Shown in pieces: positions 9,655 to 39,534 of a stretch of 64,000 nucleotides of DNA. The notes below the pieces were generated by a model, which worked only from the letters and a program-made list of their open reading frames with translations, had not been told where the DNA came from and made no database searches. Position 1 is the stretch's first letter; the number at the start of each line of letters is the position of its first letter. A program made the position numbers and the translations under genes. Source of the DNA: Pontibacterium sinense. GTDB lineage: Bacteria; Pseudomonadota; Gammaproteobacteria; Pseudomonadales; Balneatricaceae. The stretch lies in assembly GCF_015209595.1 (NCBI RefSeq), contig NZ_JADEYS010000019.1:1-64000 (forward strand), given 5' to 3'.

Positions 9655-9656
9655 GT

Positions 9657-14347: not shown

Positions 14348-14350
14348 GGT

Positions 14351-20170: not shown

Positions 20171-20173
20171 GAC

Positions 20174-21605: not shown

Positions 21606-22754
21606 CTAATTTATATTACATGTCCAAGAGGTTGGGGATATCAGGGATGTAGTTGAAGAAACGGCGATTGTTAAGTCATCCTCCGCGCATCTGGATACAG
21701 CTTCCATGGTACTGCAATCCGCAATATCTATATTGAAGACACCGTGTGAGATGAATCCTGATTGGTCGGTAATTTCCTGAAGTTCAGAAAACTCCAATAC
21801 TATAGGAGATGTGAGTATTTCTGAGGAGGTATAAGTATTACTTCTGACATTGGAAAAGCCCCTCCAAATACGCGGACAAAGACCTGACTCTAGGTTGTTA
21901 ACAGTTATTTCGATGCTGAAGTCAGATCCGAAGCTGGCTTTGTTAAGTCGATACTCTGATGCTGCAATCAGAGGTACTTCTTTTTTCAATTCATGGGTCA
22001 TTCCGTTCGAAGGTGTAGATAATGGAACATACATAGTTCTCGGAAGATCCTGTTCATATCGGGACTGCTCATGGTAAGCGTTATAGCCAGCGTTATCTGT
22101 CTGCAAACTATAGTTATTATCTTCCGGATCTTGTTGGCCGTTTAAGCCTGCACTGTATAGGTATATATGACCTGAGCTGGTATTTATCTCATATTTCCAT
22201 CCAAAGTTGAGAACATCTTTTATTAGTTTAGTTTGCTCATCGTCTGTTGGTTTAGCCCAGGCTAAGAAGGTGTTCCCCCACGCATCTCTCAATACAGGAT
22301 AACTAATATTCATGTCGTTATATTTCGTTGAGACTAAGTCAAAGCCACTGATGTAGGGGCCATTCCACTTTGGCCCTAATCCTGTTCTCCATTCTTCATC
22401 AGGCTTGCCTGATGCGGTTGCTGCGTCGTTACAATTGGTTTCACTATTTAAAAACTCTGGATTTGGGCAATATCCAGAGGAAGTGAGAAGCTCTCGAAGG
22501 TACATAGGAGGATGACCGATATCGGCAATAAAGCCATCGATATTAGGAACGCCATAGAGTATTTCAGATGGGGTGCCTAGAATTGCCTGCCGAATCATCG
22601 TTTGTCTGGATTTTGTCGCTTCAAAACGTTCTTGGTTGGTATTTTGGGCAACGAATTCGGTAGCTAGATTAGCTATCAAACCGAGTACAGCTACGACAAC
22701 CACCAGCTCAAGTAAAGTAAAGCCTTTTTGAGTTCTAATATTTTTTTGCTTCAT
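21606..22754 (-). CDS. Type IV prepilin-like protein, last gene of the filament locus
   Basis: A 382-residue protein with a type III signal: short basic leader MKQKNIRTQKG, cleavage expected after Gly11, then FTLLELVVVVAVLGL with the conserved Glu at +5. The long C-terminal domain contains a pseudopilin-like stretch (GLGPKWNGPYISG and DAWGNTFLAW) as in GspG-like proteins, and at least five cysteines. It overlaps the next upstream prepilin gene by 4 nt. It is too large for a major subunit and may be a tip or minor pilin. Confidence 0.85.
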   Translation of the reverse strand: MKQKNIRTQKGFTLLELVVVVAVLGLIANLATEFVAQNTNQERFEATKSRQTMIRQAILGTPSEILYGVPNIDGFIADIGHPPMYLRELLTSSGYCPNPEFLNSETNCNDAATASGKPDEEWRTGLGPKWNGPYISGFDLVSTKYNDMNISYPVLRDAWGNTFLAWAKPTDDEQTKLIKDVLNFGWKYEINTSSGHIYLYSAGLNGQQDPEDNNYSLQTDNAGYNAYHEQSRYEQDLPRTMYVPLSTPSNGMTHELKKEVPLIAASEYRLNKASFGSDFSIEITVNNLESGLCPRIWRGFSNVRSNTYTSSEILTSPIVLEFSELQEITDQSGFISHGVFNIDIADCSTMEAVSRCAEDDLTIAVSSTTSLISPTSWTCNIN

Positions 22755-23527
22755 CCGTCAGACCTCAGAACAATGACTATATCGTCGTCAGTAGCAGTCG
22801 CTTCGTTAAATTCACTGTTTTTGCCGGCACTAATTAACGCAATACAACTGGAAGTACATTCGGAAACATTGCTGTCTTTATAGTTTGTGTCATATCTATA
22901 TGGCATGCCCGCAAATTCGCGGGATACCCAATTACCTTCATCCAAGACAAGAAAGCATGAATCACTACCGGAATAGGTTTTCTTACGCTCAAACGGATCA
23001 GCTATCGCATCAAAGCTGTTGTTGGAGCCTGTGACCGACAAATCACAGTCTTGTGTGCTTAGTAACTGCTTGGACTCGATTGTTAGATAGGGGCCATTCC
23101 ATCCGCGGCCCGTACTATGATTCCAAGGTAATCGATTTCTAGGATCACCGTCGGAGCTGTCAGTATCATTATCTCCATTGGTGTCGTAGAGCTCAGGAGC
23201 TGATAAAAGCCAACCCAAATTATTTTGATGTTCATACTTGGATTTTGTGGTGCTGCTATCGCTAGCCCCGAATAGGTTATCTGCTGTAAACATCCCCTCT
23301 TTCGGAAAATACCCCGTATCTTCCTTAAACCGGTAGATCGCATTGGCGATCCGTTTCATCTCGACATGCACTAGCTGTTCCTGCGCATCTTGCTCGTAGC
23401 CGTCCATCGCCACCGCTGCAATACCCGCAAGAGACGCCAGAACAGAGACTACGACCAGCAGTTCAAGCAAGGTAAAACCCTGCTGTCTTTTGTAGGTTGG
23501 ATAAGGCGTTCGTAGTGTGTTCTTCAT
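22751..23527 (-). CDS. Type IV prepilin/GspG-like pseudopilin
   Basis: A 258-residue prepilin with a 17-residue leader ending in Gly17, then FTLLELLVVVSVLASLAGIA, with Glu at +5. The following region AQEQLVHVEMKRIANAIYRFKEDTGYFP resembles the GspG helix and its TG.YP motif. The segment GRGWNGPYLTIES matches the W.GPYL element of GspG. Asp-rich loops (NGDNDTDSSDGDPRN) could bind calcium, as in GspG, but this is inference. It lies between the second GspE-like ATPase and the terminal prepilin. Confidence 0.87.
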   Translation of the reverse strand: MKNTLRTPYPTYKRQQGFTLLELLVVVSVLASLAGIAAVAMDGYEQDAQEQLVHVEMKRIANAIYRFKEDTGYFPKEGMFTADNLFGASDSSTTKSKYEHQNNLGWLLSAPELYDTNGDNDTDSSDGDPRNRLPWNHSTGRGWNGPYLTIESKQLLSTQDCDLSVTGSNNSFDAIADPFERKKTYSGSDSCFLVLDEGNWVSREFAGMPYRYDTNYKDSNVSECTSSCIALISAGKNSEFNEATATDDDIVIVLRSDG

Positions 23528-23537
23528 TGTGCCTCCC

Positions 23538-24827
23538 CTACTCTGCGATCCGGTTTTCAGCCAGACCTAATACGCGCTGGACTTCGTTGATATCGGTGAT
23601 ACCGGCCTTCAGTTTGTCGAGTGCGGATTGGCGTAAGCTGGCGAGCCCCTGTTGCTCGGCATAGATCTCCAGCTGCTGATCGTTGGCGCCGGTTGCAATC
23701 AGACCTTCCAGGTCATGGTTGATCGGCAGAACCTGAAAGATACCGATACGGCCCTTATATCCGGTGCGACTGGTATCGCTGGGTTTAGCACGGTAGAGCT
23801 GTAGCTCTGCGATTTCGTCGTCCTTAAAACCGATCGCTTTGAGACGTTGCGGGGATACTTCGTCCCGCTCGCGGCTATTGGGATCAAGCTTGCGCAGCAA
23901 ACGCTGGCTGATCACCAGGCTTAATGTGGAGCCGATGTTGTGATCGTTCACACCCAGATTTCTCAGGCGTGGAATGGCTTTGGTGGCGCTGGTGGCATGT
24001 AGAGTAGAGAGCACCAAGTGGCCGGTGTGGGAGGCTTTGATCGCGGTATCGATGGTTTCTTCATCGCGCATCTCTCCGAGCATGATCACATCCGGGTCCT
24101 GCCTTAAGATGCTGCGGGCAATGTTTGCGAATGTGATGCTCTGGCGGGCACTGATATTGATCTGATTGACACCGGGCAGGTTGATCTCAACCGGGTCTTC
24201 GACCGTGTAGATATTGCGCTGGTGGTTGTTCAATTGCTTGAGCAATGTATACAAAGTGACGGTCTTGCCACTGCCGGTGGGGCCGGTGACCAGAATCATG
24301 CCCTGCAAACGCTGGCTGACATGCTGGATCAGCTGAATTTGTGGCTGACTCAGCCCCAGCATCGTGAGGTCCAGCAGTTCAGACGGCAGATGCAACAGAC
24401 GCAATACCACGGTTTCACCGTAGAGGGTTGGTGTTATCGAGCAGCGAAAATCGAGTCCGGTTTTATCATCCAGCAACATACGGAAACGGCCACTTTGGGT
24501 GCCATGGTGCTCGGAGATATCCAATCCGGCGATGACTTTCAGGCGAATAATCAGCTGACGACCAAAACCGGTTGGCAGATGGTTAATCTCCTGCATGACA
24601 CCATCGACGCGCAGGCGGATACGCAGACTCTCTTCAAAGGGCTCGAAGTGGATATCTGAGGCCCCCGTTTTCACCGCATCCAACAGCATCCGATTCAGGA
24701 ATAGCGGTGCGGTCTGGTCGTTGTGGGTTAGCTCATCCGGGGTCAGGTTATCGCGGCTGTTTTCCTGCAGGGTAAACACCAGATTGTCAGGGTTTATGTC
24801 CAGCGCATTGAGGTTCAGTTGCATCAA
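23538..24827 (-). CDS. GspE/PilB-like ATPase, short form without zinc cysteines
   Basis: A 429-residue secretion/assembly ATPase lacking the N1 domain; it begins close to the N2 domain (ASDIHFEPFEESLRIRLRVDGVM). The P-loop GPTGSGKTVTLYTLL, Asp box (TVEDPVEI), Walker B-type region (RQDPDVIMLGEMRDEET) and His box (HTGHLVLSTLHA) are intact, so it is probably active. In relatives a zinc site has two CxxC pairs; here those positions read KLDPNSR and KPSDTSR, so all four cysteines are lost. It is the second GspE-like ATPase of the locus, following the GspF gene. Confidence 0.85.
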   Translation of the reverse strand: MMQLNLNALDINPDNLVFTLQENSRDNLTPDELTHNDQTAPLFLNRMLLDAVKTGASDIHFEPFEESLRIRLRVDGVMQEINHLPTGFGRQLIIRLKVIAGLDISEHHGTQSGRFRMLLDDKTGLDFRCSITPTLYGETVVLRLLHLPSELLDLTMLGLSQPQIQLIQHVSQRLQGMILVTGPTGSGKTVTLYTLLKQLNNHQRNIYTVEDPVEINLPGVNQINISARQSITFANIARSILRQDPDVIMLGEMRDEETIDTAIKASHTGHLVLSTLHATSATKAIPRLRNLGVNDHNIGSTLSLVISQRLLRKLDPNSRERDEVSPQRLKAIGFKDDEIAELQLYRAKPSDTSRTGYKGRIGIFQVLPINHDLEGLIATGANDQQLEIYAEQQGLASLRQSALDKLKAGITDINEVQRVLGLAENRIAE

Positions 24828-24842
24828 TCTTCTCCTTACCGG

Positions 24843-26069
24843 TTACCCGGCAGATACCTGCATCATGGCCTTAAAGAAGGCGTAATAAACGAAGCCCACC
24901 TGCCCCGCGACGATCACGGTCATCGCCGGTTCCATGGTGGAGATCATGCGTTTGATCCGGGCCTCGGCCATCTCCTGATAGTACTTACCCAGTTCACGCA
25001 TCACGTGTTCCAGCTCGCCACTGCGCTCGCCGATACCGGCCATATGCTGGACCATGGGTGGAATATTGTTTTGCTTGAGGCCATACGCGAGGCTGCGTCC
25101 GGCAAGAATTTCGTCCCCTGCTTGCTGGAAACAGGTAGAGAGCCGTTTATTAGCCATAATGTCGCTGACCACACGCAGGGATTCGAGGACCGTCAAACCT
25201 GAGCTGAGCAGCAGAGACATGGTCCATCCCATCTGAGACATGGCGGAGGTGCGGATGCTGTGACCCACCATCGGTACATGCAGCAGAATTCGGTCGATTA
25301 CCGATTTTCCGAGCACCGTGGTGTACGAGGCCAGTGTCAGGAAGAGTCCGATACCCAGCACGATGGCCAGATACAGGCCGTAATCCACCAGCCAGGTCGA
25401 GATATTCATCATCGCCTGTGTGGCGCCGGGTAGATCCTGCGAGCGGCCCTCAAGCAGTGTGGCAAATTTGGGGATGATGCTTAGGGTCAGAAACAGCGTG
25501 ACGCCCACCGAGGCGACCAGCAGGAACATCGGATAGGTCATGGCCGAGATAAACTGACGCTTCAGTGCGGCCGAACGTTCAAGGCTTTCTGCCAGTCGTT
25601 CCAGCGTGGCTTGTAACTCACCGGACGCTTCACCGGAGGCAACCAGTTTGGCGACCAGCGGCGGAAAGCGGGTGCCCTGTTTTTGTATAGCTGCGGCGAA
25701 ACTGGAGCCACCCTGAATCGCGACCAGCACGTTGATCAGTGTGTTACGCAGCTGCACTTTCTCCGTCATTTCTGAGCAAAGCTCCAAACCCTGAATCAAC
25801 GTATTACCCGCCCGCAACATCAAGGCAAGCTGACGAAAGGTCATCACCAGATCACCGCTGCTGATACCGGCATACCGTTTGGGTGATAGCGAACGGCGTA
25901 ACATCGCGAGTAGGCGTAGCGGGTTGAAGCTGGAAGCGAGTTCAACTTTCAATACATGCAGGGAGCGAGAACGTAACAGTGCAGTGGCTTCTGCCGGACT
26001 GGCGGCTTCAACATTGCCTTTTTTCTCCTGCCCGCGGGCATCGAGCGCCTTATATCTGTACTTTGCCAT
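24843..26069 (-). CDS. GspF/PilC-like inner-membrane platform protein
   Basis: Platform protein of a type IV filament machine (408 residues from the chosen start MAKYRYKALDARGQEKKG). Two repeated T2SSF domains are visible: the first with LVMTFRQLALMLRAGNTLIQGLEL, the second with SQMGWTMSLLLSSGLTVLESL, each followed by hydrophobic helices. The start is set at 26069 because AGGAGAG lies 6-7 nt upstream; a longer in-frame extension to 26129 would run into the preceding ATPase gene. It is the only platform gene in the locus although two GspE-like ATPases are present. Confidence 0.9.
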   Translation of the reverse strand: MAKYRYKALDARGQEKKGNVEAASPAEATALLRSRSLHVLKVELASSFNPLRLLAMLRRSLSPKRYAGISSGDLVMTFRQLALMLRAGNTLIQGLELCSEMTEKVQLRNTLINVLVAIQGGSSFAAAIQKQGTRFPPLVAKLVASGEASGELQATLERLAESLERSAALKRQFISAMTYPMFLLVASVGVTLFLTLSIIPKFATLLEGRSQDLPGATQAMMNISTWLVDYGLYLAIVLGIGLFLTLASYTTVLGKSVIDRILLHVPMVGHSIRTSAMSQMGWTMSLLLSSGLTVLESLRVVSDIMANKRLSTCFQQAGDEILAGRSLAYGLKQNNIPPMVQHMAGIGERSGELEHVMRELGKYYQEMAEARIKRMISTMEPAMTVIVAGQVGFVYYAFFKAMMQVSAG

Positions 26070-26082
26070 GAGATCTCTCCTG

Positions 26083-27681
26083 CTATTCCTGATGTAGGTG
26101 CATGGCTTCATGCAGGCTGGTGGTGCCATCCAGTACTTTGTGGCGAGCGTCCTGCCATAAAGTGCTCAACAGCTGCTGTTGGTTGGCGTATTTTTTCAGC
26201 GCTTCATCGTCGGCGCCTTCATGAATCAGCACTTCCATTTTTGAATCTATCCACAGGGTTTCGTAGATACCGATACGCCCCCGGAAACCACTACCAAGAC
26301 ATTGTGCACAGCCGCAGGGTTCGTAGAGTGTGACGGTTTTATCCACCTGAAGATGATTCTGTTCGGACGCAGTGGATGGACGGGGTTTTCGACAGGCTGT
26401 GCATAACTTTCGAATCAGTCTCTGGGCCAAAATACCCACGAGTGTGGAAGCGATGAGATAACGCGGACAGCCAATATCCACAAGGCGGTTGATGGAGGCA
26501 ACGGCGCTGTTGGTGTGCAGTGTGGATAACACCATATGACCGGTCATGGCGGCACGCACGGCGGTTTCGGCGGTTTCTTTATCACGGATCTCACCCACCA
26601 GCATCACATCAGGGTCATGACGCAGAAATGAGCGCAGGGCTTTGGCGAAACCGACTTTCTCTGAAACCTGTACCTGTCCGGTACCTTCTACCACCTGCTC
26701 GATGGGATCTTCGACGGTCAGGATATTGAGTTCGCTGGCATCCAGTTCCCGCAGTGCCGCATATAGAGTGGTACTTTTGCCGCTACCGGTGGGCCCCGTC
26801 ACCAATACGATGCCATGGGGTTTACGTACAGCATCCCGCATGGGTTGCAATACAGGGTCCGGCATCCCGAGCTGGGACAGGGTTAGATTACTGGTGTCCT
26901 GACCTAAAATACGCAGGGTAGCCCGCTCTCCCCAACGGGTCGGGATGGTGGCAACACGCATCTCCACCTCATCCGCTTCAGGCCAGTCGCTGATGCGATA
27001 GGCAAAGCCGCCATCCTGCGCCATATTCTGTTCGGCAATATCTAGCCCGGAGAGAACCTTAATACGGCTGATTAGCGCTTCGGCCAGCGCCTGATCGATC
27101 GGGCGTTCGTAGTTATGCATCTTGCCGTCCCGACGCATACGCAGTTGCATGCCCTCTTCCAGCGGTTCGAAGTGCAGATCCGTGGCTTTGCAGACATAGG
27201 CCTCTTTCATGATCGCTTCGAAGATCGAGACCGCGTCCTGATTGTTTTCGTAGAGCTTAAAATGCTGGCGCAGGCAGGTTTCGATCAGCAACGGGTCGGC
27301 CATTGCCATATGGGGACGTTGGCCCAGTGAACGCATGACTGCATCCACCGGCATACGATCATCCGGATCGGTCAGCAGAACAACCAGTTCGTTATTGTGC
27401 TCAACCGGCAGGAACAGACGGCGCAGCAAAATATCGCCGTTAAAGGGTGTCAGTAACTCGGATTTAATCTGAATATCGCCCCGTTCATAAAACGCTAACT
27501 GGCGGCTTTCGGCCAGGGCTCGGTATAGCGCGGTAAGGGGATAACGACCGTGACGGCAGAGCAGTTCCGGTAAGTTGATTCCGGCACGCCGCGCTTGTGT
27601 TTTGAGCTCGGGCAGCTGCTGCGGATCAATCAGCCCAGCAGTGATCCCCGCCTGAATCAGGGTGTTTTCCTGCAACGCCAT
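26083..27681 (-). CDS. GspE/PilB-family assembly ATPase with N-terminal domain
   Basis: A 532-residue assembly ATPase, full-length type. The N-terminal domain (about 1-140) includes LIQAGITAGLIDPQQLPELKT. N2 begins near ATDLHFEPLEEGMQLRMRRDGKM, and the P-loop is GPTGSGKSTTLYAAL. Unlike the second ATPase of the locus it keeps a tetracysteine site (CTACRKP and CGCAQCLGSGFRGRIGIYE). This is the likely main extension motor. It abuts the PilT gene by one base and precedes the GspF gene. Confidence 0.9.
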   Translation of the reverse strand: MALQENTLIQAGITAGLIDPQQLPELKTQARRAGINLPELLCRHGRYPLTALYRALAESRQLAFYERGDIQIKSELLTPFNGDILLRRLFLPVEHNNELVVLLTDPDDRMPVDAVMRSLGQRPHMAMADPLLIETCLRQHFKLYENNQDAVSIFEAIMKEAYVCKATDLHFEPLEEGMQLRMRRDGKMHNYERPIDQALAEALISRIKVLSGLDIAEQNMAQDGGFAYRISDWPEADEVEMRVATIPTRWGERATLRILGQDTSNLTLSQLGMPDPVLQPMRDAVRKPHGIVLVTGPTGSGKSTTLYAALRELDASELNILTVEDPIEQVVEGTGQVQVSEKVGFAKALRSFLRHDPDVMLVGEIRDKETAETAVRAAMTGHMVLSTLHTNSAVASINRLVDIGCPRYLIASTLVGILAQRLIRKLCTACRKPRPSTASEQNHLQVDKTVTLYEPCGCAQCLGSGFRGRIGIYETLWIDSKMEVLIHEGADDEALKKYANQQQLLSTLWQDARHKVLDGTTSLHEAMHLHQE

Positions 27682-28796
27682 CAGCGTGCTCCGCCTTTGG
27701 CACCGAGCAAACGCTCAAAGGTTTGCAGATCGCGGCATAACATCCTGCCAGCGTCAGCCGTGATCTGTTTCGTGCGGACGACGCGAGCCAACGCCTGATC
27801 CAGCGTTTGCATCCCCTCACGGGTACTACTTTCCATCACTGAGTAGATCTGCTTACTCTTGGACGATTCGATCAGATTGGCGACCGCCGTGTTCACCATC
27901 AGAATTTCTGCCACCACGGCGCGACTTTTCCCGTCCATTGTGGGGACAAGGTTTTGTGCGACGACGGCTTTTAGGGCGTGGGCGATACGTTGGCGGGCCA
28001 CGGTTTGTTCGTTGCCGGGGAAACTGCCAATCAGTCGTTCGATCACGCCGACCGCATCATTGGTGTGCAGGGTGGAAAAGACCAGATGGCCGGTTTCAGC
28101 GGCGGTCAGTGCGGTGCGCATGGTTTCCAGATCGCGCATCTCTCCGACCATGATGACATCCGGGTCTTCACGCAGGGCGGCTTTTACTGCGCTGGCGAAG
28201 TTAGGCACATCGGTGTACAGCTCGCGCTGGTGGACGATGGATTTTTTGTTCTGATGAACAAATTCCACCGGGTCTTCCACGGTCAGGATGTGTTTGGCCT
28301 GATGTTCATTGATGTCATTCAGGATGGCGGTCAGGGTGGTACTTTTCCCCGAACCTGTGGCACCGCAGACCAATACCAACCCACTTTTTAACTGTGCCAG
28401 ATATTCCATCTGAGGAGGCAGGCCCAGTTCAGAGGTACTTTTCAGACTGCCGTCCAGATAACGGATCGCCAGCGCGGTATTACCCTGTTCCCGATATACA
28501 TTGACCCTGAAACGATTGCCCAGCTGGGTGCTAAATCCCATATCCAGCGTCATATCCTGCCGGAATTGACCTTGTTGCAGTTCGGACATTAATGCACGGG
28601 CCATCGCATCGACTTCGGCGCCATTGTATTGGTGCTCTCCGGACGAACGGATCTGCCCTCGGATACGGTAAGTTGCTGGTAGTCCATGGGACAGGTGCAG
28701 GTCCGATGCGCCGAGTGTGGCACAAGCGTCCATCAACTCACGAATCTGTTCCGCCTGCTGCATGTCGTGATGTAGGCTCTCAAGGCTCTGGGTCAT
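27681..28796 (-). CDS. PilT-like retraction ATPase
   Basis: A 371-residue ATPase of the PilT subfamily: a short N-terminal PAS-like part with ASDLHLSHGLPATYRIRGQI, P-loop GATGSGKSTTLTAIL, Asp box LTVEDPVEFVHQNKK, and ALREDPDVIMVGEMRD. The PilT-typical AIRNLIRE-like element appears as AVANLIESSKSKQIYSVMESS with the following QTLDQALA. Presence of a PilT suggests a dynamic, retractable filament rather than a plain T2SS. Downstream it overlaps the GspE-type gene. Confidence 0.9.
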   Translation of the reverse strand: MTQSLESLHHDMQQAEQIRELMDACATLGASDLHLSHGLPATYRIRGQIRSSGEHQYNGAEVDAMARALMSELQQGQFRQDMTLDMGFSTQLGNRFRVNVYREQGNTALAIRYLDGSLKSTSELGLPPQMEYLAQLKSGLVLVCGATGSGKSTTLTAILNDINEHQAKHILTVEDPVEFVHQNKKSIVHQRELYTDVPNFASAVKAALREDPDVIMVGEMRDLETMRTALTAAETGHLVFSTLHTNDAVGVIERLIGSFPGNEQTVARQRIAHALKAVVAQNLVPTMDGKSRAVVAEILMVNTAVANLIESSKSKQIYSVMESSTREGMQTLDQALARVVRTKQITADAGRMLCRDLQTFERLLGAKGGAR

Positions 28797-28801
28797 AACA
28801 A

Positions 28802-28837
28802 TTTTTAAGTCCTTAAACTCTTTAAGCTCTTTAAACT
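28802..28837. repeat. Four imperfect 9-bp tandem repeats
   Basis: The gap between the PilO-like and PilT genes contains tandem 9-mers: tttttaagt, ccttaaact, ctttaagct, ctttaaact (28802-28837). They lie just before the PilT start and leave its ribosome site weak. Their role is unknown. Confidence 0.45.
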
Positions 28838-28855
28838 TCGTCCTGAATCTGGACT

Positions 28856-29479
28856 TTAAATCTGCAGGCTGAGCTGAATTTTCAGATAACCTTCGCTGTC
28901 GGGTACGCTTTCCAGTGAGATATCGGTGACATAGATGTGGTAACTCAGTTCGGGCAGCGCATCGAGAAAATCGATCAAGTTGAGATAATGCCCGCCCAGC
29001 GAGAATAGAAACTGCGGTCGGTTGGCAAAGTGCTCGCGCAGTGCCTGCCCGTCGAGTTGCTGATGATTAGAGCGCAGTGTGTTTTTGCTGGTGGTCAGGC
29101 GGCTCACCCGTAACATACTGCTTTGGGCCAGTTGTGTGAGTTCCAGCTTCAGTGCTTCGCGGGCGCCGGCATCGTTCAACGGCAACAGTGTGCTCGCCAG
29201 ATTGCGCAGCTCGCGGGTCTGGCTATCCAGAGTGTTTTTTAGGGTCGCCAGATGCGCTTCGGAGATGCCCTCTTCCAGTTTGGGAATATCTACGTTTCCT
29301 AAGCGCTTTTCGATTCGGTCCGCTTTGCGGTTAGCCATCTTTTGTGTCTCAAACATCTGTGCCCAAGTAGCGGCTGCCCAGAACAGATAGCCAGCCACCA
29401 AGGAACAACTGATGAAGATCCATAGCATCTTACGATCACGTTCGGGCAGGGCCTGATACTTGTCACTGATCAAACTCAT
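28856..29479 (-). CDS. PilO/GspM-like alignment-complex protein
   Basis: A 207-residue protein with a short cytoplasmic start (SLISDKYQALPERDRKML), one membrane helix (about 19-40), a coiled-coil-prone stretch (45-115) and a ferredoxin-like C-terminal domain (FLFSLGGHYLNLIDFLDALPE...DISLES). This layout is that of PilO and GspM/MshJ, which form the inner-membrane ring with PilN. It starts inside the last codons of the PilM/N fusion gene (4-nt overlap). Confidence 0.78.
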   Translation of the reverse strand: MSLISDKYQALPERDRKMLWIFISCSLVAGYLFWAAATWAQMFETQKMANRKADRIEKRLGNVDIPKLEEGISEAHLATLKNTLDSQTRELRNLASTLLPLNDAGAREALKLELTQLAQSSMLRVSRLTTSKNTLRSNHQQLDGQALREHFANRPQFLFSLGGHYLNLIDFLDALPELSYHIYVTDISLESVPDSEGYLKIQLSLQI

Positions 29480-31491
29480 GAGCGTGTTCCTGACTGGGTT
29501 GGGGGCGTTGAAGAGTGGAGAGGTGTCACTGCTGTTTGCAACACAATATCGATGGTGTAAGGCAATGGTGTCAGGTTCTCCGGGTCATGGATGACATCGG
29601 ATGAACGTACTTGCAGATTCATCGGTTTCAACAGTTGGTTCAGGTTATGGGTAAATTCCTGTCCCTGAGAATCTCCGCCTGCTTCAGCGCGAATTTGTAC
29701 CTGCCCCGCAGTGCGCTGCACGGATACCAGCTTTACACCTGTGGGTATGCTGATGCTGATCGCTTTTAACAGGACGGGCACCGTGAGCTGTTGTTGCGGC
29801 AGCTCTCGGCTGAGTTGAGACAACAGTTCAGTATTCTTGCCTACTTCCAATTGCGCATCCGCAATCAGCGCTTTCAACCCTGATTGTTGACTGATAATGG
29901 AGCCAAACTGTTTTTGCTTGGCGGATTCTTTTTCGAACTTTTCGTTCAGCTCGGCAAGGCGCTGTTCCTGTTGCCACATGTTGGCGTGCATCCAGAGCAT
30001 AAAACCGGCTAGTGTGGATATGACAACGATGGCCGCTGACAGCTTCAGTGTTTTGGGTTGCAGAAGCTTTTGCCAGATAGGTGGTTCGATATCACGGGCG
30101 GCAATCCAGCTCAGACGTGCACGGGAAACATGATTTAGGAAGTGATCTGCTGCGCCGGAGAGGCTGAGCAGTGCATCGTCACTGAGTCCATCAGGTGTGA
30201 CCAAATCCGGAGCATCCAGCGTCAGGCTGTGTACGTTGATGCCCAACTCCAGGCTGAGTTGGCGTAACTGCTGATCACCCAGCAGTTCCTGATGGTTGAT
30301 ATAGAGGTTTTTCAGATCGGACGGTAACACACCGGTCAGCGTGTTGATCTGGTGGGCATCAACCGCACCGGGTAAACGTTCGGCGACCTGTATTTCGGTT
30401 ACGCCCCCGGCATGCCCGCTGATGCAGGCCAGTTGTTCCTGATGCAGTTCAATCAGCCATTGTTCCTGATCGGTACAGCGATGGGACAAACTGGCGAAAC
30501 TCGCCCCTACAGACGGATAAAAGGCTTCAATTTTCAGGCCGTTGAGATTAAATGCCCCAACCCAGCGGCGGCGAACCTCTTTGCTCATGCCACTGACCAG
30601 CCATTTATGGGCGCTGTTATTGTCCTCTTCGGCACTGAGCAACACTTCATCACTGAGTGTTTGCTCTGAGAGGTTTTCTTCTGCCTGCCAGCCATATACC
30701 AGATCATCATCCAGTGCGACCAGTTTGCCCTGCAGGGAAAAGCACTCTTCCAGCTGTGCATAGCTGATGTACTTCATCTGTACAGCCAGATCACCAAAGC
30801 GGATCATGGCGCTTTCACCGCCCTGACTCTGGCGTAGCTGCAGTTCTGTGACCAGTTCATCACGCTGCTGCGGACTGAGGTATCCGCGCTCGACCAGCAT
30901 GGAGCCGATCAACCACTGTTTATTCTGTTGAGTCACCGCCCCTTCCAGCTCCCAGCGGATCAGCTCCTGCATCTGTTCATCGGAACGTGGACGCAATGGG
31001 CTGACGGGCAGATCAACTAAGGATGAAACGACGCTGGGGGTGATCAGAATCGCGCGTTTGGGCAGGCGACGCTGATGCTGCTTCAGCTGTTCCATCACTT
31101 CGGCAATGGCACGGGTGAAATCTACGTTGCGGGATTCGGCCACGATGGCCGGAACAGCGTAATGGCGGGAGTTGCGGATCAGTGCTCCGCGCAAGCCAAA
31201 ACTACCCGCTTGAAACGCAATCATGGCGAAGCTTGGCCCGACCGAAAAATATCCAGCCAAGGTATTGAGTTTGAGTAGATTAAAACGTTCTCTGGATGCA
31301 CCTTCTGGCACATCCGGTAGCGTCTCAGCCAGATCCACATCCTGATGGAGATGATCGTCCTGTTGATCAACGGGCTGACCGGTGAACGGATTGATACTGA
31401 CCGTCTCAGGATCCTGGGCGATCTCTGTGACGTGATCATCAATCACCGTTTCGGTTTTACGGCGCAGCAGTTTGTTAATCAGGTTTTTCAA
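29476..31491 (-). CDS. PilM/PilN (GspL-like) fusion with inserted GspE-N-like module
   Basis: A 671-residue protein. Residues 80-480 resemble the actin-like PilM/GspL cytoplasmic domain (FAMIAFQAGSFGLRGALI, LPKRAILITPSVVSSLVDLP, ELIRWELEGAV). Then come a membrane helix (about 484-501), a coiled-coil stretch (505-560) and a PilN-type periplasmic domain (LLKAISISIPTGVKLVSVQ). Inside the actin-like part, residues 195-255 contain two units (IGSMLVERGYLSPQQRDELV and FGDLAVQMKYISYAQLEECF) of the kind found at the N-terminus of GspE/MshE ATPases. That insertion is unexpected for the family. The N-terminal 75 residues are acidic and probably disordered. Confidence 0.78.
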   Translation of the reverse strand: MKNLINKLLRRKTETVIDDHVTEIAQDPETVSINPFTGQPVDQQDDHLHQDVDLAETLPDVPEGASRERFNLLKLNTLAGYFSVGPSFAMIAFQAGSFGLRGALIRNSRHYAVPAIVAESRNVDFTRAIAEVMEQLKQHQRRLPKRAILITPSVVSSLVDLPVSPLRPRSDEQMQELIRWELEGAVTQQNKQWLIGSMLVERGYLSPQQRDELVTELQLRQSQGGESAMIRFGDLAVQMKYISYAQLEECFSLQGKLVALDDDLVYGWQAEENLSEQTLSDEVLLSAEEDNNSAHKWLVSGMSKEVRRRWVGAFNLNGLKIEAFYPSVGASFASLSHRCTDQEQWLIELHQEQLACISGHAGGVTEIQVAERLPGAVDAHQINTLTGVLPSDLKNLYINHQELLGDQQLRQLSLELGINVHSLTLDAPDLVTPDGLSDDALLSLSGAADHFLNHVSRARLSWIAARDIEPPIWQKLLQPKTLKLSAAIVVISTLAGFMLWMHANMWQQEQRLAELNEKFEKESAKQKQFGSIISQQSGLKALIADAQLEVGKNTELLSQLSRELPQQQLTVPVLLKAISISIPTGVKLVSVQRTAGQVQIRAEAGGDSQGQEFTHNLNQLLKPMNLQVRSSDVIHDPENLTPLPYTIDIVLQTAVTPLHSSTPPTQSGTRS

Positions 31492-31597
31492 AACAGATGC
31501 TTCCGGTTGTGTTCTGTCGCAGCCCTCACCGAGGGCGACGTTTTGGATGTGTGTCCGTTTGTTGTGTTACGGAATCATTCGCGATTAATGATGATGC

Positions 31598-32104
31598 TTA
31601 GTGAAGCGTCTCCGCTCCGATCACAACCAAACGCGGGCCTTTGGCGTAGTTGTAGATATGAACGGCATAAAAATGACTGAGTTCGTTTTGAGGTAGTAAC
31701 TTCAATTGCAGGGCGGCTGGTTTACTGACATAAACGGCAATAACACGTCCGTCTTTTGCGCCCACAAAAGCACTGTGACTGATCTCGGGCATATCCCCGT
31801 CACCCCAGAGGTTTAACGCATCGTAAACCAGTGAAAAATGACCCGCTTTTGGAGGAGCCATCAGCGTCGCGTCAAATTGGATGGTCGAAGGAGGCAGCAT
31901 CAGACGCTGCTGCTTTTCGATCATCTGTGCGGAAAGTTGGTTGGCGTCGATAAACTCGTTCAACACAACCGATTCGAATGGCGGTGAAACAGCCGCTGTG
32001 TCCGGTATATCTGCTGCAAAGACTTGGCCGCTAAATGCCAATAACACCAGCGCAAGCAAAATAGACGGGCGTAATGAAAGAGATGCCAAGCTAAACAACT
32101 GCAT
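31598..32104 (-). CDS. Secreted protein of unknown function in the filament locus
   Basis: A 168-residue protein with a clear signal peptide (RPSILLALVLLAFSGQVFA, cut expected near residue 30). The mature part is about 138 residues with no cysteine and no motif I recognise; segments such as GHFSLVYDALNLWGDGDMPE and RVIAVYVSKPAALQL look beta-rich. It lies between the major prepilin and the PilM/N fusion, so a role in the periplasm or outer membrane of the same machine is likely but unproven. Confidence 0.72.
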   Translation of the reverse strand: MQLFSLASLSLRPSILLALVLLAFSGQVFAADIPDTAAVSPPFESVVLNEFIDANQLSAQMIEKQQRLMLPPSTIQFDATLMAPPKAGHFSLVYDALNLWGDGDMPEISHSAFVGAKDGRVIAVYVSKPAALQLKLLPQNELSHFYAVHIYNYAKGPRLVVIGAETLH

Positions 32105-32145
32105 AGTGATGACTCGGGTAAGAAGAAGGGGAGAATCTGAAACGT

Positions 32146-32175
32146 AAAAGGCCGATCAGGTTGCCCTGACCGGCC
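32146..32175 (-). terminator. Terminator after the major prepilin gene
   Basis: An 11-bp stem with one non-Watson-Crick position, GGCCGATCAGG/CCTGACCGGCC (32150-32160, 32165-32175), 4-nt loop, followed on the minus strand by TTTT (32149-32146). It lies 36 nt after the prepilin stop. In such loci a leaky terminator here lets the subunit be made in excess over the machine. Confidence 0.8.
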
Positions 32176-32210
32176 CGGGAGGTATTAACTCCAGCTAACC
32201 GGTCATACGA

Positions 32211-33275
32211 TTAGATGGTGTTACGTGTACCATCCCATTCACCCAGTTCTTCTTCTTTGGTGTCACCAGCGCCATCGACAATCGCGGCCAGAGTAACCTG
32301 TTCGCCGGCAGTGATACCGGTACCACCTGCTCCAACCGTACCGATGTTAAACAGAGCGACAAATCGGTTGTATTGGGTTTCAGATACATGACGGTATACC
32401 GGTACGGAGGTCATACCACCCAGATCATTCGCATTAAACAGAGAAGACGATGGACCTAAGCCTACCGCCATCAATACTGGTGCGTTTGCAACACCTGCAG
32501 TGATTGCAGAACCGTCAGTCGCCAGTGCTGTAGCATCAAAACCAGCCCCCGCCTGTCCCATGACTCGTTCGTAACCACCAGTCCAAAGGGCAACTTTAGG
32601 AGCATCGTTCAGCTGGAAGCCAGCTGTTCCAGCGTCACCATCAATATTATTCCATGTAGCACCACAGCCGTTTGCAGCCGGAGACAGGAAGATGTTACCG
32701 GCAACGACTGCATTCCCACGTGATGCGATCAGTGCATCTACATCAGCACATGTTCCTGCATCGGGTGGATCACCTGCAGCGTTCAGGTATTTCAGGCTGG
32801 TAATACCACCAGCGTTCATGATTTCGGCAATCTCCACTGGTAGGTTGATCAGTGCGATATCTTCAATTGCCAGCAGCTCATTTGAAGGAGAGGTTGCAGT
32901 TCCGGCAACGGCTGCGCCTGCGGCGAAGTCAGTTCCTGCATCAGTGACTTCTACCAGGGAATCAAAGCCGGTCGGCAATGCATTTCTGTTCAGGACACGG
33001 AAGGTACGAATACCTTTGTTCAGCTCATCCATCATAGTGACGTGAGCCGCAGCAGATGCACGTGCGTCAGTGTCCTGCAGTGCCAGAGAGGCGGTACCGG
33101 CGATCGCGGCCAGAATCGCAACAACAACCAGCAATTCAAGCAGGGTGAAACCGCCCTGTTTTGCTTTAAGTGTGCGGAATTTAGAACGCAGCTCTACGTC
33201 CTGAATGTCATTTTCTTTTACGTCAGCGAATTTAGCGGTCAGCGCAGCGCGCTTGTTCATCAGAGAGTTAAACAT
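32211..33275 (-). CDS. Major prepilin candidate with unusually long leader
   Basis: A 354-residue prepilin. The processing site lies at Gly42, followed by FTLLELLVVVAILAAIAG with Glu at +5. The leader is thus 42 residues, far longer than the usual 6-26, and is charged (AKFADVKENDIQDVELR). The mature protein (about 312 residues) is rich in Ala, Gly, Thr and Asp and has four or so cysteines. A terminator directly after it and a structured leader RNA before it suggest separate, high expression. A start at Met6 is possible but has no ribosome site; Met1 has GGAAAA upstream. Confidence 0.85.
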   Translation of the reverse strand: MFNSLMNKRAALTAKFADVKENDIQDVELRSKFRTLKAKQGGFTLLELLVVVAILAAIAGTASLALQDTDARASAAAHVTMMDELNKGIRTFRVLNRNALPTGFDSLVEVTDAGTDFAAGAAVAGTATSPSNELLAIEDIALINLPVEIAEIMNAGGITSLKYLNAAGDPPDAGTCADVDALIASRGNAVVAGNIFLSPAANGCGATWNNIDGDAGTAGFQLNDAPKVALWTGGYERVMGQAGAGFDATALATDGSAITAGVANAPVLMAVGLGPSSSLFNANDLGGMTSVPVYRHVSETQYNRFVALFNIGTVGAGGTGITAGEQVTLAAIVDGAGDTKEEELGEWDGTRNTI

Positions 33276-33515
33276 TGTTTTTCCAGTTCAATCGAAGTTT
33301 GGGTTTGAGACTGTTGACGTAAGAGCAGACTCCCCCCGCGGGAGCTGTGACAACTTACCCAGTCCAATTGAACGCTTCCCTTGGTGTTGTCTGCTGATCA
33401 GACCCGGGCACCCCGCCCGACACCGCTTCAGAACACAATCCGTTGGTTCCTACCATTTTTGTTTATCAGGGTGTGGCCACCCTCACGTATTTACTGCGTC
33501 CGTTCTTTCTGGTGA
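33276..33515 (-). promoter_or_regulatory. Structured leader region of the major prepilin gene
   Basis: No gene. On the minus-strand RNA, 33424-33383 can fold into a compact three-way junction: outer stem GGUGU/ACACC (33420-33424 with 33383-33387), hairpin CGGGC/GCCCG (33405-33419) and hairpin GUCUG/CAGAC (33389-33403). Further upstream lies a hairpin AGGGTG/CACCCT (33468-33483). I see no convincing -35/-10 pair, and no match to a riboswitch class I know. Confidence 0.45.
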
Positions 33516-33782
33516 TTAAGCCAGAATATCCTTCTTCAGCCAGGCTTTGATGACCGATTCATCCGCAAGCGCGTGACTGCAATTGAGTACATAACGGTGT
33601 TGTTTACCGCAATGGATGATGATCTCCTTCTGACCACGGCGAAGGATCTTCATTTCGATCCGCATATCACCATAGCCATCGTGTTCAAACAGTTCAGCGT
33701 AGAGATCAAATAGCGTCTGGAGAACCGCTTTATGCTGGTCAATTTCTTCCAGCTGTTTCGCCTTCACTGTCTGTTCAGTCAT
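33516..33782 (-). CDS. Small cytoplasmic protein with Fur-type promoter
   Basis: An 88-residue soluble protein (MTEQTVKAKQLEEIDQHKAV), predicted helical at the N-terminus and beta in the middle (MRIEMKILRRGQKEIIIHCG). There are two cysteines (IHCG, NCSHA) and several histidines, which could bind metal, but no known motif. I do not recognise the family. Its own promoter overlaps a Fur box (33818-33836). It is co-directional with the filament genes and sits between the lipoprotein and the major prepilin, so iron-dependent control inside the locus is plausible. Confidence 0.72.
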   Translation of the reverse strand: MTEQTVKAKQLEEIDQHKAVLQTLFDLYAELFEHDGYGDMRIEMKILRRGQKEIIIHCGKQHRYVLNCSHALADESVIKAWLKKDILA

Positions 33783-33817
33783 AACACTCCATCCCGGGCT
33801 TTAATAACACTGCTAAT

Positions 33818-33853
33818 GCAAATCATTATCATTACGTTATTGGTATGAGTCAA
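33818..33853 (-). promoter_or_regulatory. Promoter overlapped by a Fur box
   Basis: Minus-strand -35 TTGACT (33848-33853), exactly 17-nt spacer, -10 GATAAT (33825-33830). The plus-strand 19-mer 33818-33836 (GCAAATCATTATCATTACG), read as its complement, matches 14 of 19 positions of the Fur consensus and covers the -10. The box lies 36-54 nt before the 88-residue gene. Confidence 0.7.
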
Positions 33854-33889
33854 GCTTAAAGTTGAACAGTGAATAAAAAAGTACGAAAT

Positions 33890-34165
33890 TTAATCTTTAT
33901 AGATCAGCACAGATCGGGTTTTTTCTGTGTTTTCGGAGATTTTAGGTTCAAATTCGACGATGTATCCAGCCTGCTCTTTTTGTTCACCAGAATAGGCCTT
34001 CTGAAAAACAAACATCTTCAGTGCGGATCCTTTCTCTAAGTCGTGCGTGGCGACCTGAGTTTCAGATGTGATAGAGACGGATTTTTTAACCGGACCCAGT
34101 GTGCAGCCAGTAAGTAATACGATTGCTATCAGGGCTGTGATTCGCTTTATGGGTCTGTGACTCAT
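33890..34165 (-). CDS. Small lipoprotein following the secretin gene
   Basis: A 91-residue lipoprotein with signal and lipobox ITALIAIVLLTGC, lipidated at Cys21. The residue after it is Thr, so it probably goes to the outer membrane. The mature part (about 70 residues) is charged with no motif I recognise. It overlaps the secretin gene by 4 nt and is likely translated with it. By position it could be a pilotin-like or secretin accessory protein, but it is much smaller than PilF and has no TPR. Confidence 0.78.
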   Translation of the reverse strand: MSHRPIKRITALIAIVLLTGCTLGPVKKSVSITSETQVATHDLEKGSALKMFVFQKAYSGEQKEQAGYIVEFEPKISENTEKTRSVLIYKD

Positions 34166-36318
34166 CGGTTCCCAGCCTCCAATGTCTGAATTATGTCTGC
34201 CATCGGTTTATCCGAGAGCAGATAGAGATGGGTACTGTCTTTGCCCTGATTAAACGGGGCCAGACTTTCCTGATCGGTTGTTGCCGCCAGCCACTCGCCC
34301 GGTAGCTCAGGCAGCCGGATTGGTTGAGCTGAATCGGATTGATTGCGGACTTTAACTGTAGTGATATGTAATCCATCTAGTTCGGCTGCCCTGACCGGCC
34401 AGGCGACCAGTGCGGTATTGTCCAGCAACGCCGCTAAAGGTGTTTGTACCACCTCATTCACCTGTAGGCCTGAAAGCGCTGGTAGCGGCTGATCATGAGC
34501 TTGTGCGTAGGCGTATCGACTGAGGGCAACATAATCGGCGACCTCGTAAGATCTGGCTTGTGGCGTAGCGGTGGTGCTGGACGGTTCTTTGTACGTATCG
34601 TAGTCGAACTCACTGATCTCTCGGGATTTGTCCTGTGACTCTTCCGGGCTGAGCAGAATATGCGGTGTCAGCAGCATGACGTACTGTGAGTTGGTGTCGG
34701 CTGTGTTTTTGCTTTTGAACAGGTCTCCAAGGAATGGAAGATCGCCCAATAGCGGCACTTTGGTTTCGGCCTCGGATGAGGAGTTGTCGATCATACCGCC
34801 CAGTGCAATGGTATAGCCGTCTTTAGCCACGACGACTGTTTTGACGTTTTCCTCTTCGACAGAGTCCAGATCCACGGATTTAATCTGATTATCGCTGTTA
34901 TCAAAGTACGGGAAGCGCAAGCCCCCCCGCTTTACGGTGGAGGTTTCCTGCAGAATATCAATTGTCACTGTGCGATCTGCGTTGATGCTCGGCAGCAGTA
35001 TCAGGGTGTTGCCCACTTTGCGCCGTTCGGTTTCGAGCGTTGAGGTGGTGCTGGTTGAGCGATCACCGGATTCGTTAGCGTTAGAAAACAGCGTCGAGGT
35101 ATCCAGGCTGGTGGCGATCACTTTCTCTTCACCGATAAACAGGCGTGCGGGTCGGTTGTTGGACGCCATCACCACCGGTTTGGCGATCGCTTCTGCCTGA
35201 TTGTTTTTCTCCAGTAAAGAGACCTTGGCATTCACGTATTTACTGTAAAGCTGGTAAAAACCACCGGTAACCGAGTCGAAGCCTGCGGCAGTGACATTGT
35301 CTCCGCTGAGTTGCGAGAAGCGCCGCGCTAGCGTCGATATGGTATCGCTACTGGCAGTGTAAGGAGTGTTGGCAAAGTTGGTCGAGGACGGTGTGAAGGT
35401 TCCGGTTGCGGTGATGCCCTCTACGACCTGAGCATCATTAAACGACAGGTTAAAGTCTTGATCATACTCATCTCCCACGCTGATCCGCACGATCTTCATC
35501 TCCAGCAGGACTTGTGGTGTTGGCCGGTCGGTCTCCTGGACGATTTTTTCGATCTCAGCCATGGCATTTTCATCGCTGGTGCGTACAAACAGCAGGTTAT
35601 GAATGGCATTGGTGGTGACGTAGATCGGTGTCGTTGCACCTAGCAAGCGGCTGGCTTTATCCGCGTCGACGTTTTCCGTTTCACCCAGTTGTTTAATCAC
35701 ACCACTGCTGAGCTCCTGATCGGCGAGCTGAACAGTCTTGTCTTTATCGTCTGTGTCGTCGCTACTATCCGTATTGGTATCGTTGTTATTGTTTTCGTCG
35801 TCATTTTCGGAGCGGCGAGCGACAACCGTTGCTTCATCGGCCGTATCAAAATTCAGCCCGTCAAAGCCGTTATTGTCCTCTTCCAAGGTCAGTTCAACGC
35901 GGTCTCCATACAGATTTTTAATGGTTTGAGCTGCGGACTCCGTATTCTGATGGCGTAAGGTGAACGTGCGTACGATATCGTCACGGTAAACCACAATATC
36001 GCCCTGATACTGCTCTTCGGTCATGATCAGATAGCTGTTATTGTTTTTGCTATAGCGATACCAGAGCCCGGATACGCGCGCTAAGGTATCCACCGCGTGC
36101 TTCAGGTTTACATCACGTAGCAGCAGATTAACCTGAGCCCCGCTGGCGGCCTGAGTGACCGCGATGTTACTGCCGGTCATCGCTGCCAGAATACGGGTCG
36201 CATCCTCGATGGCTGCGTCTTTAAATTCAACAAACTCGATCGTTTTGGCGACTGCATTGGCTGTAGGGGCCGCGATGCACAGACAGACCATTAGCGTCTG
36301 GATATATTTTTTCATCAC
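34162..36318 (-). CDS. Secretin (PilQ/GspD/MshL family) with C-terminal extension
   Basis: A 718-residue outer-membrane secretin. After a signal peptide (to about residue 24) come an STN-like N-terminal part (28-95), an N-domain region split by an acidic Asp/Asn linker (about 169-195), and a secretin core (265-556) with VPLLGDLPFLGDLFKS and YVMLLTPHIL near its end. Secretins usually stop soon after; here about 150 residues follow (to 718), including TTVKVRNQSDSAQPIRLPEL and DSTHLYLLSDKP. From memory this resembles the C-terminal part of DUF3438/TraK-like proteins of conjugative elements. It overlaps the PilP-like gene and the lipoprotein gene by 4 nt each. Confidence 0.87.
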   Translation of the reverse strand: MMKKYIQTLMVCLCIAAPTANAVAKTIEFVEFKDAAIEDATRILAAMTGSNIAVTQAASGAQVNLLLRDVNLKHAVDTLARVSGLWYRYSKNNNSYLIMTEEQYQGDIVVYRDDIVRTFTLRHQNTESAAQTIKNLYGDRVELTLEEDNNGFDGLNFDTADEATVVARRSENDDENNNNDTNTDSSDDTDDKDKTVQLADQELSSGVIKQLGETENVDADKASRLLGATTPIYVTTNAIHNLLFVRTSDENAMAEIEKIVQETDRPTPQVLLEMKIVRISVGDEYDQDFNLSFNDAQVVEGITATGTFTPSSTNFANTPYTASSDTISTLARRFSQLSGDNVTAAGFDSVTGGFYQLYSKYVNAKVSLLEKNNQAEAIAKPVVMASNNRPARLFIGEEKVIATSLDTSTLFSNANESGDRSTSTTSTLETERRKVGNTLILLPSINADRTVTIDILQETSTVKRGGLRFPYFDNSDNQIKSVDLDSVEEENVKTVVVAKDGYTIALGGMIDNSSSEAETKVPLLGDLPFLGDLFKSKNTADTNSQYVMLLTPHILLSPEESQDKSREISEFDYDTYKEPSSTTATPQARSYEVADYVALSRYAYAQAHDQPLPALSGLQVNEVVQTPLAALLDNTALVAWPVRAAELDGLHITTVKVRNQSDSAQPIRLPELPGEWLAATTDQESLAPFNQGKDSTHLYLLSDKPMADIIQTLEAGNR

Positions 36319-36890
36319 TGAATCACCACTTTTTCACCAAGGTTGCCGAACTCAATAATCAGGTTAAGCGGGTTGATCTCAACGATCCGTACAACGGTAT
36401 CGCTGGTCATCTGTTGCAGGCCCACTTTGTCTCCTTCCTTCACGACAAAGGTGCCGAGACCGTTGATATTTAAAAGACCGGCCTTTTCACCGTCCATACG
36501 GATAAAGCCGCGAAATTGCATGCGAGGGATACCCTGAGATTCTTCCTGTTGTGCTTGGCTTAGCGAGAATTTACCGCTGCTCTTTGTATCCTCGGTGGTG
36601 TTACCCCCCAGACGTTTAGGGACAAAGAGGTCTTTTTTCTGGCGGCTCGGTGCTGAAGGCTGACGGGTCTGTTCGGTATCGGCAAATGGGTCACGCGCGT
36701 TACGCGATAGACGTTTATCCATCTGCTGATTCACGCGTGCATAGTACTGCTCGAGTTTTTTCAGATTTCCGGCCAGATCGGAAGAGTCTAATGCTTCAAC
36801 TCTAAGGGGGGATGGTGACTCGTTGGCTGTTTCTGCCTGTGCGATCAGGGGTATCCATACAACGAGCGCCAGCAGAAAGCGAACAGCCAC
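36315..36890 (-). CDS. PilP/MshK-like inner-membrane or periplasmic protein
   Basis: A 191-residue protein with an N-terminal signal or anchor (FLLALVVWIPLIAQA), a polar linker containing SRNARDPFADTE, which resembles the R.PF motif of PilP/MshK, and a C-terminal beta domain (MQFRGFIRMDGEKAGLLNINGLGTFVVKEGDKVG), like the PilP/GspC HR domain that docks on the secretin N0. Start is GTG at 36890 with GGAG 6 nt before it. It is the first gene of the filament locus and the next gene is the secretin, the usual order. Confidence 0.78.
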   Translation of the reverse strand: MAVRFLLALVVWIPLIAQAETANESPSPLRVEALDSSDLAGNLKKLEQYYARVNQQMDKRLSRNARDPFADTEQTRQPSAPSRQKKDLFVPKRLGGNTTEDTKSSGKFSLSQAQQEESQGIPRMQFRGFIRMDGEKAGLLNINGLGTFVVKEGDKVGLQQMTSDTVVRIVEINPLNLIIEFGNLGEKVVIQ

Positions 36891-37615: not shown

Positions 37616-38053
37616 TTAAACCGAAACACCTTGCTGCTGTAGCCATTGCTTGAGCTGAGGCAGTGGCAATGCACCACTCATACGGGCAACCTCTTTGCCC
37701 TGGCGGAATAGGATCAGGGTGGGAATGGAGCGAATCTGCCATTGGCCAGCGATGCCCTGCTCTGCTTCGGTATTCAGCTTAGCCAGTCGGATGTTGGGTT
37801 CAAACTCTTTTGCTGCTTGCTCGAAGATCGGTGCAAACTGCTGACAAGGGCCACACCAGGTCGCCCAGCAATCAACCAGCACCGGGATATCGTTGCGATT
37901 AAGTACGCTGCTGACGTTGGCGGCAGACAGCTCTTGTGCCTTACCACTGAAGACGGGTTGTTTACACTTGCCACATTTCGGTCCATCGCCAAGACGATCC
38001 GCCGGGATACGGTTGGTGACGTTACAGTGTGGGCAACTAAGATTAAGTGACAT
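37616..38053 (-). CDS. trxC: Thioredoxin 2
   Basis: Thioredoxin TrxC (145 residues), a cytoplasmic disulfide reductase. An N-terminal zinc finger (CPHCN and CGKC, residues 7-33) precedes a thioredoxin fold with the active site WATWCGPCQQF. The cis-proline region SIPTLILFRQG is intact. The zinc finger distinguishes it from TrxA. It follows mnmE in the same direction with about 50 nt between. Confidence 0.94.
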   Translation of the reverse strand: MSLNLSCPHCNVTNRIPADRLGDGPKCGKCKQPVFSGKAQELSAANVSSVLNRNDIPVLVDCWATWCGPCQQFAPIFEQAAKEFEPNIRLAKLNTEAEQGIAGQWQIRSIPTLILFRQGKEVARMSGALPLPQLKQWLQQQGVSV

Positions 38054-38107
38054 CGTTATTTTCCTTGTGAGTCCAACACACGGCTCGGCTCTGCGCTGGG
38101 CTTCAGT

Positions 38108-39475: not shown

Positions 39476-39495
39476 ATTCTTGTACCGTCAAAAGC

Positions 39496-39521: not shown

Positions 39522-39534
39522 ATAGGGAGGTGGT

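Follow-up and report, generated by a model that had tools for sequence, protein, structure and literature searches.

A type IV filament locus of Pontibacterium sinense, probably a class of its own, with an MshEN-like insert in its PilM-PilN anchor

Gene content and genomic setting of the locus

The window, a 64,000-nucleotide stretch of the genome of Pontibacterium sinense, a relative of marine Oceanospirillaceae, carries at 21606-36890 fourteen minus-strand genes, all long open frames. Their order is PilP-like protein, secretin, small lipoprotein, ORF88, major prepilin, ORF168, PilM/N, PilO-like protein, PilT, GspE1, GspF, GspE2 and two further prepilins. The features are as follows.

12630-37628, no strand: genomic island holding the locus, limits approximate, roughly 25 kb, from congener synteny
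36315-36890, minus: PilP/GspC-like periplasmic protein, 191 aa; beside the secretin in relatives
34162-36318, minus: secretin, 718 aa
34195-34593, minus: DUF3438 domain at the secretin C terminus, aa 576-708 (39 bits, cut-off 25)
33890-34165, minus: small predicted lipoprotein, 91 aa, with a signal and a cysteine that we take to be lipobox-like
33516-33782, minus: ORF88, conserved 88-aa protein just upstream of the major prepilin
32211-33275, minus: major prepilin, 354 aa (N_methyl, 32 bits)
33150-33275, minus: 42-residue leader peptide of the major prepilin
31598-32104, minus: ORF168, exported protein, recurrent accessory, 168 aa
29476-31491, minus: PilM/N anchor protein, 671 aa (AlphaFold2 model, mean pLDDT 82)
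30130-31239, minus: PilM-like actin-fold part, aa 85-454
30721-30915, minus: MshEN-like insert inside the PilM-like part, about aa 193-257 (hhalign, NF053729, PDB 5htl)
29533-30057, minus: long helix and PilN-like part, aa 479-653 (hhalign, 94% to PilN; PDB PilN 3jc8, E 2.5e-6)
28856-29479, minus: PilO/GspM-like protein, 207 aa, position conserved
27681-28796, minus: PilT-family ATPase, 371 aa
26083-27681, minus: extension ATPase GspE1, 532 aa (PF00437, 396 bits)
24843-26129, minus: platform protein of GspF/PilC type, 428 aa (PF00482)
23538-24827, minus: second ATPase GspE2, 429 aa, T4aP PilB-derived
22751-23527, minus: second prepilin, 258 aa, GspG-like N terminus (N_methyl, 33 bits)
21606-22754, minus: third prepilin, 382 aa, GspG-like N terminus (N_methyl, 27 bits)

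Profile matches are clear for the ATPases, platform, PilT, secretin and prepilins but weak for PilO and PilP. Every gene that the first-pass annotation had claimed on the minus strand of this interval was found, including two ATPases of the T2SSE/PilB type (387 and 396 bits), one GspF platform (T2SSF profile, 156 bits), a PilT (NCBIfam pilT_fam, 402 bits, cut-off 319), a secretin (Pfam Secretin, 118 bits) and three prepilins with an N-methylation motif (27 to 33 bits). Its PilO-like and PilP-like labels fall under the Pfam cut-off as single sequences (E 0.08 and 0.45, respectively) but are favored by position and by conservation in relatives; "GspG-like" suits the first ~60 residues of the second and third prepilins, but both stay under the GspG cut-off. 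ORF88, ORF168, the MshEN-like insert, the DUF3438 tail of the secretin and the island were absent from that annotation.

The best NCBIfam models for the secretin and the platform are GspD and GspF, both under cut-off. DUF3438 was found on 8 of 12 secretins scanned; the same stretch (34195-34593) also has a below-cut-off match to TIGR03749, a family of integrating conjugative element proteins. The secretin model of the Akkermansia pilus, Amuc_1098 (cut-off 750), gave only 59.5 bits for the window and 57.5 for an Opitutales member. The small lipoprotein was detected in 3 of the 44 related loci described below (two-row HMM).

GspE1 has a Walker A motif and two CxxC pairs, and PF05157 (MshEN family) matches its residues 62-142 with 33 bits (cut-off 23), meaning that the MshEN-type domain is not confined to the anchor. 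Judged from sequence, this motor keeps an MshEN-family N-domain without c-di-GMP motifs. GspE2 lacks the N1 domain and the tetracysteine, with only one cysteine, and appears to be a recruited T4aP PilB; none of the 44 loci outside the window's lineage has it. The locus PilT would be a retraction motor.

The 354-aa prepilin is probably the major subunit, as its position and conservation suggest. The description of it as "leader-controlled" finds no support at the RNA level, with no Rfam match at the gathering score and a fold z of -1.0; the long leader is a conserved peptide. The leader survey comprised 40 rows (39 loci and the window), or 38 after one without a prepilin start and one duplicate were removed. 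A conserved charged leader, 38 to 46 residues long by called start (51 and 69 in two), occurs in 21 of the 38, all 21 with ORF88; ORF88 without the leader is seen in 8 and neither in 9 (Fisher 1.5e-4), a co-occurrence that is suggestive only, because the pattern was picked after viewing the sequences and kinship is uncorrected. ORF88 has 10 invariant columns among 25 aligned members (H34, G36, Q51-K52-E53, G59-K60-Q61, R63, V65) and a predicted a-b-b-b-a fold (pLDDT 79). Long leaders are also described for T4bP and for the T4aP of S. sanguinis in the available part of PMC10191384. ORF168 recurs in 18 of the 44 loci and has no Pfam or NCBIfam match. O-antigen-ligase family (Wzy_C) proteins, possibly pilin oligosaccharyltransferases, lie near the locus in two relatives (L033:14888-16648 and L031:3888-5744), and a Wzy_C-related gene cluster, profiled in part, occurs in 9 loci.

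No prepilin peptidase was found within the filament locus. By our own reading of the sequence, a PilD-like frame adjoins pilB and pilC on contig C23 of the same genome, which elsewhere encodes GspE, PilB, PilQ and PilT genes over NCBIfam cut-offs and, again by our reading of the frames, MSHA- and Tad-like clusters. Hence, the filament locus is a further system in a genome that has T2SS, T4aP and PilT genes elsewhere. The genome also contains a 750-aa secretion-type ATPase (L021:8285-10537) with no other component match nearby, which forms a long branch beside the genome's own T2SS ATPase.

Island absence was compared in two congeners, the contigs of two others (G003 and G004) ending near this site. 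In G002, window stretches 614-12629 (aligning at 86%) and 37629-40923 (80%) are separated by 647 bp; the corresponding gap in G001, between the counterparts of 12385 and 37628, is 2.1 kb. Insertion in the window's lineage, rather than loss in the congeners, would be the simpler reading. The island cargo at 13145-20722 encodes an FTR1 permease, a TgpA-type transglutaminase, a MoxR ATPase, a di-haem oxidoreductase, a 182-aa protein and a 295-aa protein without Pfam match. Relatives of several cargo genes are seen near the locus in other genera (L034-L038 and L063), and DoxX in L034 and L039. Where the island begins on the left, mnmG and the FTR1 gene flank four sites that we take to be DnaA-box-like, all within 435 bp (12496-12930); the whole window has 10, compared to a shuffled mean of 4.8. 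The cluster is possibly oriC, and the earlier placement of the locus "beside oriC" is plausible insofar as our assumed consensus holds.

The PilM/N anchor and its MshEN-like insert

PilM/N has no meaningful Pfam match, and none at E 0.01. The claimed PilM-PilN fusion is nevertheless borne out, since the C-terminal part matches PilN by profile and the N-terminal part is predicted to fold as PilM. As a distinguishing mark, the fusion exists but is not new alone, because GspL of the T2SS shares the PilM-PilN plan, and it is split in three loci. The GspL model matches 1 of 42 PilM/N members.

What is the insert within the actin fold? Against the N terminus of MshE, hhalign gave 96.4%, and against PilB 63%, with five other controls below 1% (GspE, PilM, MshG, PilT and the N terminus of the class's own GspE1); the insert also matches PDB 5htl (E 8e-4). 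The NCBIfam model NF053729 (c-di-GMP motif) matches 35 of the 42 members at E up to 0.01, the window insert scoring 25.5 bits, under the cut-off of 38, and Pfam MshEN matches none of the 42. By profile comparison, the insert is thus a homolog of the MshEN domain. With the MshEN c-di-GMP receptor domain, as described in the available part of PMC5013675, it shares the two-motif helical region; in contrast to that domain, it is set in an actin-fold anchor protein and its motif I is degenerate.

It is an even question whether the insert binds no c-di-GMP and acts solely as the interface at which PilM and the ATPase dock. Motif I is altered among the 42 members, with mostly Ser, Thr or other residues at position 1 and mostly Arg or Ala at position 17, and none of the 42 has the two 24-residue c-di-GMP motifs of the MshEN domain. 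A relaxed motif, taken from the available text of PMC5013675, occurs once in 18 of the 42 members, twice in none and in 0 of 8400 shuffled segments. Within the first 160 residues, it is found in 10 of 11 MshE but in 0 of 11 GspE, 0 of 9 PilB and 0 of 39 class ATPases. Only 2 of the 11 MshE have two copies, indicating that the relaxed pattern also misses true sites. Against a non-binding insert, motif II is well kept among the 42 (R231 in 37, F/Y232 in 40, G233 in 40, Q246 in 37 and Q254 in 37), and the GSPII-B domain of PilF tolerates Lys or Leu as the first motif residue without losing binding, according to the accessible part of PMC11731258. In the window copy, a lysine replaces the motif-II glycine.

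Distribution, gene order and phylogenetic separation

With the own genome counted each time, PilM/N turned up in 5 of 57 relatives (one protein as query, E up to 1e-3), in 5 of 369 genomes of the taxonomic class (5-row profile, E up to 1e-10), in 11 of 116 genomes and 6 of 16 genera of the family (42-row profile) and in 3 of 398 genomes of the phylum, where G614 matches the PilN part only (E 9e-12). None of four congeners has it, one of them (G004) being 86% complete in 500 contigs. A genome-collection scan with an 8-row profile and a single peptide pattern yielded 58 stretches with at least 44 relatives, many of them MAG contigs, and 44 is a lower bound because a single pattern misses members. 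The relatives belong to Gamma-, Beta- and Alphaproteobacteria, Nitrospinota, Nitrospirota, Planctomycetota and one Opitutales. The locus recurs patchily across several phyla, and the restriction to marine gammaproteobacteria proposed earlier does not hold. The locus-bearing contigs L060 and L061, placed in two different MAGs (Ectothiorhodospiraceae and Chromatiaceae), have identical gene calls.

HMMs for the components, trained on up to eight loci, were applied to the whole set of 44, which includes seven of the seeds. The usual arrangement runs ORF88, major prepilin, prepilin 2, ORF168, prepilin 3, PilM/N, PilO, PilT, GspE1, GspF, PilP and secretin, although some loci lack ORF88, ORF168 or PilT. 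As a search for the same arrangement in other genomes had been proposed, we note that the genes seen keep this order in 36 of 44 loci, and in 25 of the 32 with all nine core genes; 12 loci are shorter than 20 kb because of contig ends. The exceptions are L034-L039, of the window's lineage, which, like the window, start with PilP and secretin and end with prepilins 2 and 3; L057 (secretin first); and L077 (GspE1 last). GspE2 is present in five of L034-L039 and the window. PilT is found in 25 of the 38 loci where PilO and GspE1 are both seen. The 13 without it (L050, L053-L059, L062, L068, L071, L074 and L075), mostly methylotrophs and one Planctomycetota MAG, mean that a dedicated PilT is not universal. 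A LuxR-type response regulator and a histidine kinase with a LapD/MoxY-type sensor lie near one locus (L033:917-2894), with related genes in 7 loci, several of Methylophaga.

For the trees, class rows were chosen subsets of the 44 loci, the window and L032, and references comprised 11 T2SS, 11 MSHA and 9 PilB, all Pseudomonadota apart from 24 ATPases and without T4bP or Com rows; platform and secretin references were Pseudomonadota only. Single-gene trees were quick searches without bootstrap. In the ATPase tree (103 rows), a single branch sets off 29 GspE1 (SH-aLRT 95), 17 locus PilTs cluster together, distinct from the PilT and PilU of T4aP (SH-aLRT 99), and six GspE2 group with PilB (SH-aLRT 100). 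One branch likewise separates 28 class rows in the platform tree (59 rows; SH-aLRT 99, with only 54 for the T2SS group) and 27 in the secretin tree (55 rows; SH-aLRT 100). A careful concatenated tree of ATPase, platform and secretin (44 rows, 1404 columns, midpoint root, eight rows with odd letter make-up) recovered the class (20 rows) at 100/100, MSHA (10 rows) at 100/100, T2SS (9) at 99/98 and T4aP (5) at 100/100.

As a guard against reference bias, ATPases were collected from eight class host genomes, seven of other phyla and one of Hyphomicrobiales: of 47 matches, 30 were fetched and 28 usable, four being class ATPases already included. The other 24, from the seven non-proteobacterial genomes, fell outside the class (SH-aLRT 100, PilT-rooted quick tree). 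The own T2SS ATPase lies outside the T2SS group in both ATPase trees; the own TadA-like ATPase (one row) and the Tad secretin are far outgroups. Placement of all core genes inside the MSHA or T4aP clade had been set as the refuting outcome, and the trees did not show it: ATPase, platform and secretin stand apart singly and concatenated, outside the T4aP, T2SS and MSHA branches, and only the accessory GspE2 falls with PilB.

Placement among known systems and proposed mechanism

The locus shares with the T4aP (PilB/C/M/N/O/P/Q with PilT/PilU) the extension ATPase, platform, secretin, PilM fold, PilN part and PilT, but differs in its separate branches, its fused PilM and PilN with the MshEN-like insert, its single locus, its three prepilins and its PilTs, which are not of the T4aP type. 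With the MSHA pilus (MshE/G/L) it has in common a single locus, no peptidase found therein and a Pfam MshEN-family domain on the ATPase, whereas the c-di-GMP motif region is in PilM/N, the motifs being absent from the ATPase, the branches are separate and the PilT is its own. The T2SS (GspC-M) shares GspG-like prepilin starts, a single locus and the GspL-type fusion plan; in contrast to that system, the class lies on separate branches, has three prepilins rather than five and carries a PilT in the window locus and 25 of 38 loci. A secretin is present, unlike in Com of monoderms, which have no outer membrane. Tad pili share a single locus on an island (for Tad, from the available part of PMC10191384), but the own TadA and Tad secretin are far from the class. 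In T4bP, the same source states, PilMNOP is replaced by fewer proteins.

Could the locus be a T2SS variant, in which a short periplasmic pseudopilus pushes proteins through the secretin and PilT is an add-on? The GspL-like plan of PilM/N (with the GspL model matching a single member), the under-cut-off GspD and GspF matches, the GspG-like starts of the second and third prepilins and the 13 loci without PilT point that way. We nevertheless consider this quite improbable, since no tree places the class with the T2SS rows, the PilTs encoded in the loci form a separate clade and three prepilins stand against the five T2SS pseudopilins given in the available part of PMC10191384.

Also unlikely is a divergent offshoot of T4aP or MSHA, to be drawn into either clade once more systems are sampled. 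In the accessible portion of PMC6668835, the superfamily tree has a polyphyletic T4aP and the final models left 884 systems as generic, and our secretin tree puts MSHA beside the class (SH-aLRT 91), with long-branch warnings. Against this stand the 100/100 separation in the concatenated tree, an ATPase clade unbroken by the 24 outside rows and, in scans of the locus with Pfam models only, no extra AAA (MshM-like) or TPR (MshN-like) protein.

The locus is therefore probably a complete envelope-spanning type IV filament machine in a class of its own, a reading based on gene content and order, phylogenetic separation from the references used, the predicted fold, domain homology and island absence in two congeners. 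The first-pass view that it matches none of the named systems is supported to the extent that it stands apart from the T4aP, T2SS, MSHA and Tad references used. The available text of a 2023 review (PMC10191384) counts six kinds of bacterial type 4 filaments and asks for the next letters to be given to new pilus subtypes. Class members may sit among the generic systems of PMC6668835, as far as its accessible part tells; no description of the locus was found in titles and abstract starts among the literature matches listed (subscription papers and preprints outside the scope).

From these components, we infer that a filament is formed and retracted, that the ATPase docks and a ligand is bound, and which roles ORF88 and the long leader play. 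Three prepilins would be processed by a prepilin peptidase encoded elsewhere in the genome and polymerized by GspE1 and the GspF platform, the PilM/N-PilO-PilP assembly and secretin would lead the filament outward, and the locus's own PilT would retract it. We expect the PilM-like domain to be the docking site of the ATPase; its MshEN-like insert may make this docking adjustable by c-di-GMP, by a related ligand or through contact with a protein. In the window's lineage, a shortened T4aP PilB would be the second ATPase. The fullest version of this reading is put forward tentatively, as possible but somewhat doubtful: a further type IV filament class beside the six named, in five phyla and island-borne, with a c-di-GMP motif region in the PilM anchor, a motif-less motor N-domain and a ~40-residue major-prepilin leader handled by a dedicated ORF88. 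Combining its own PilT with an MshEN-like insert in a fused PilM-PilN anchor, the class would offer a natural test of second-messenger gating of pilus motors and, because part of it is without PilT, of how retraction is lost.
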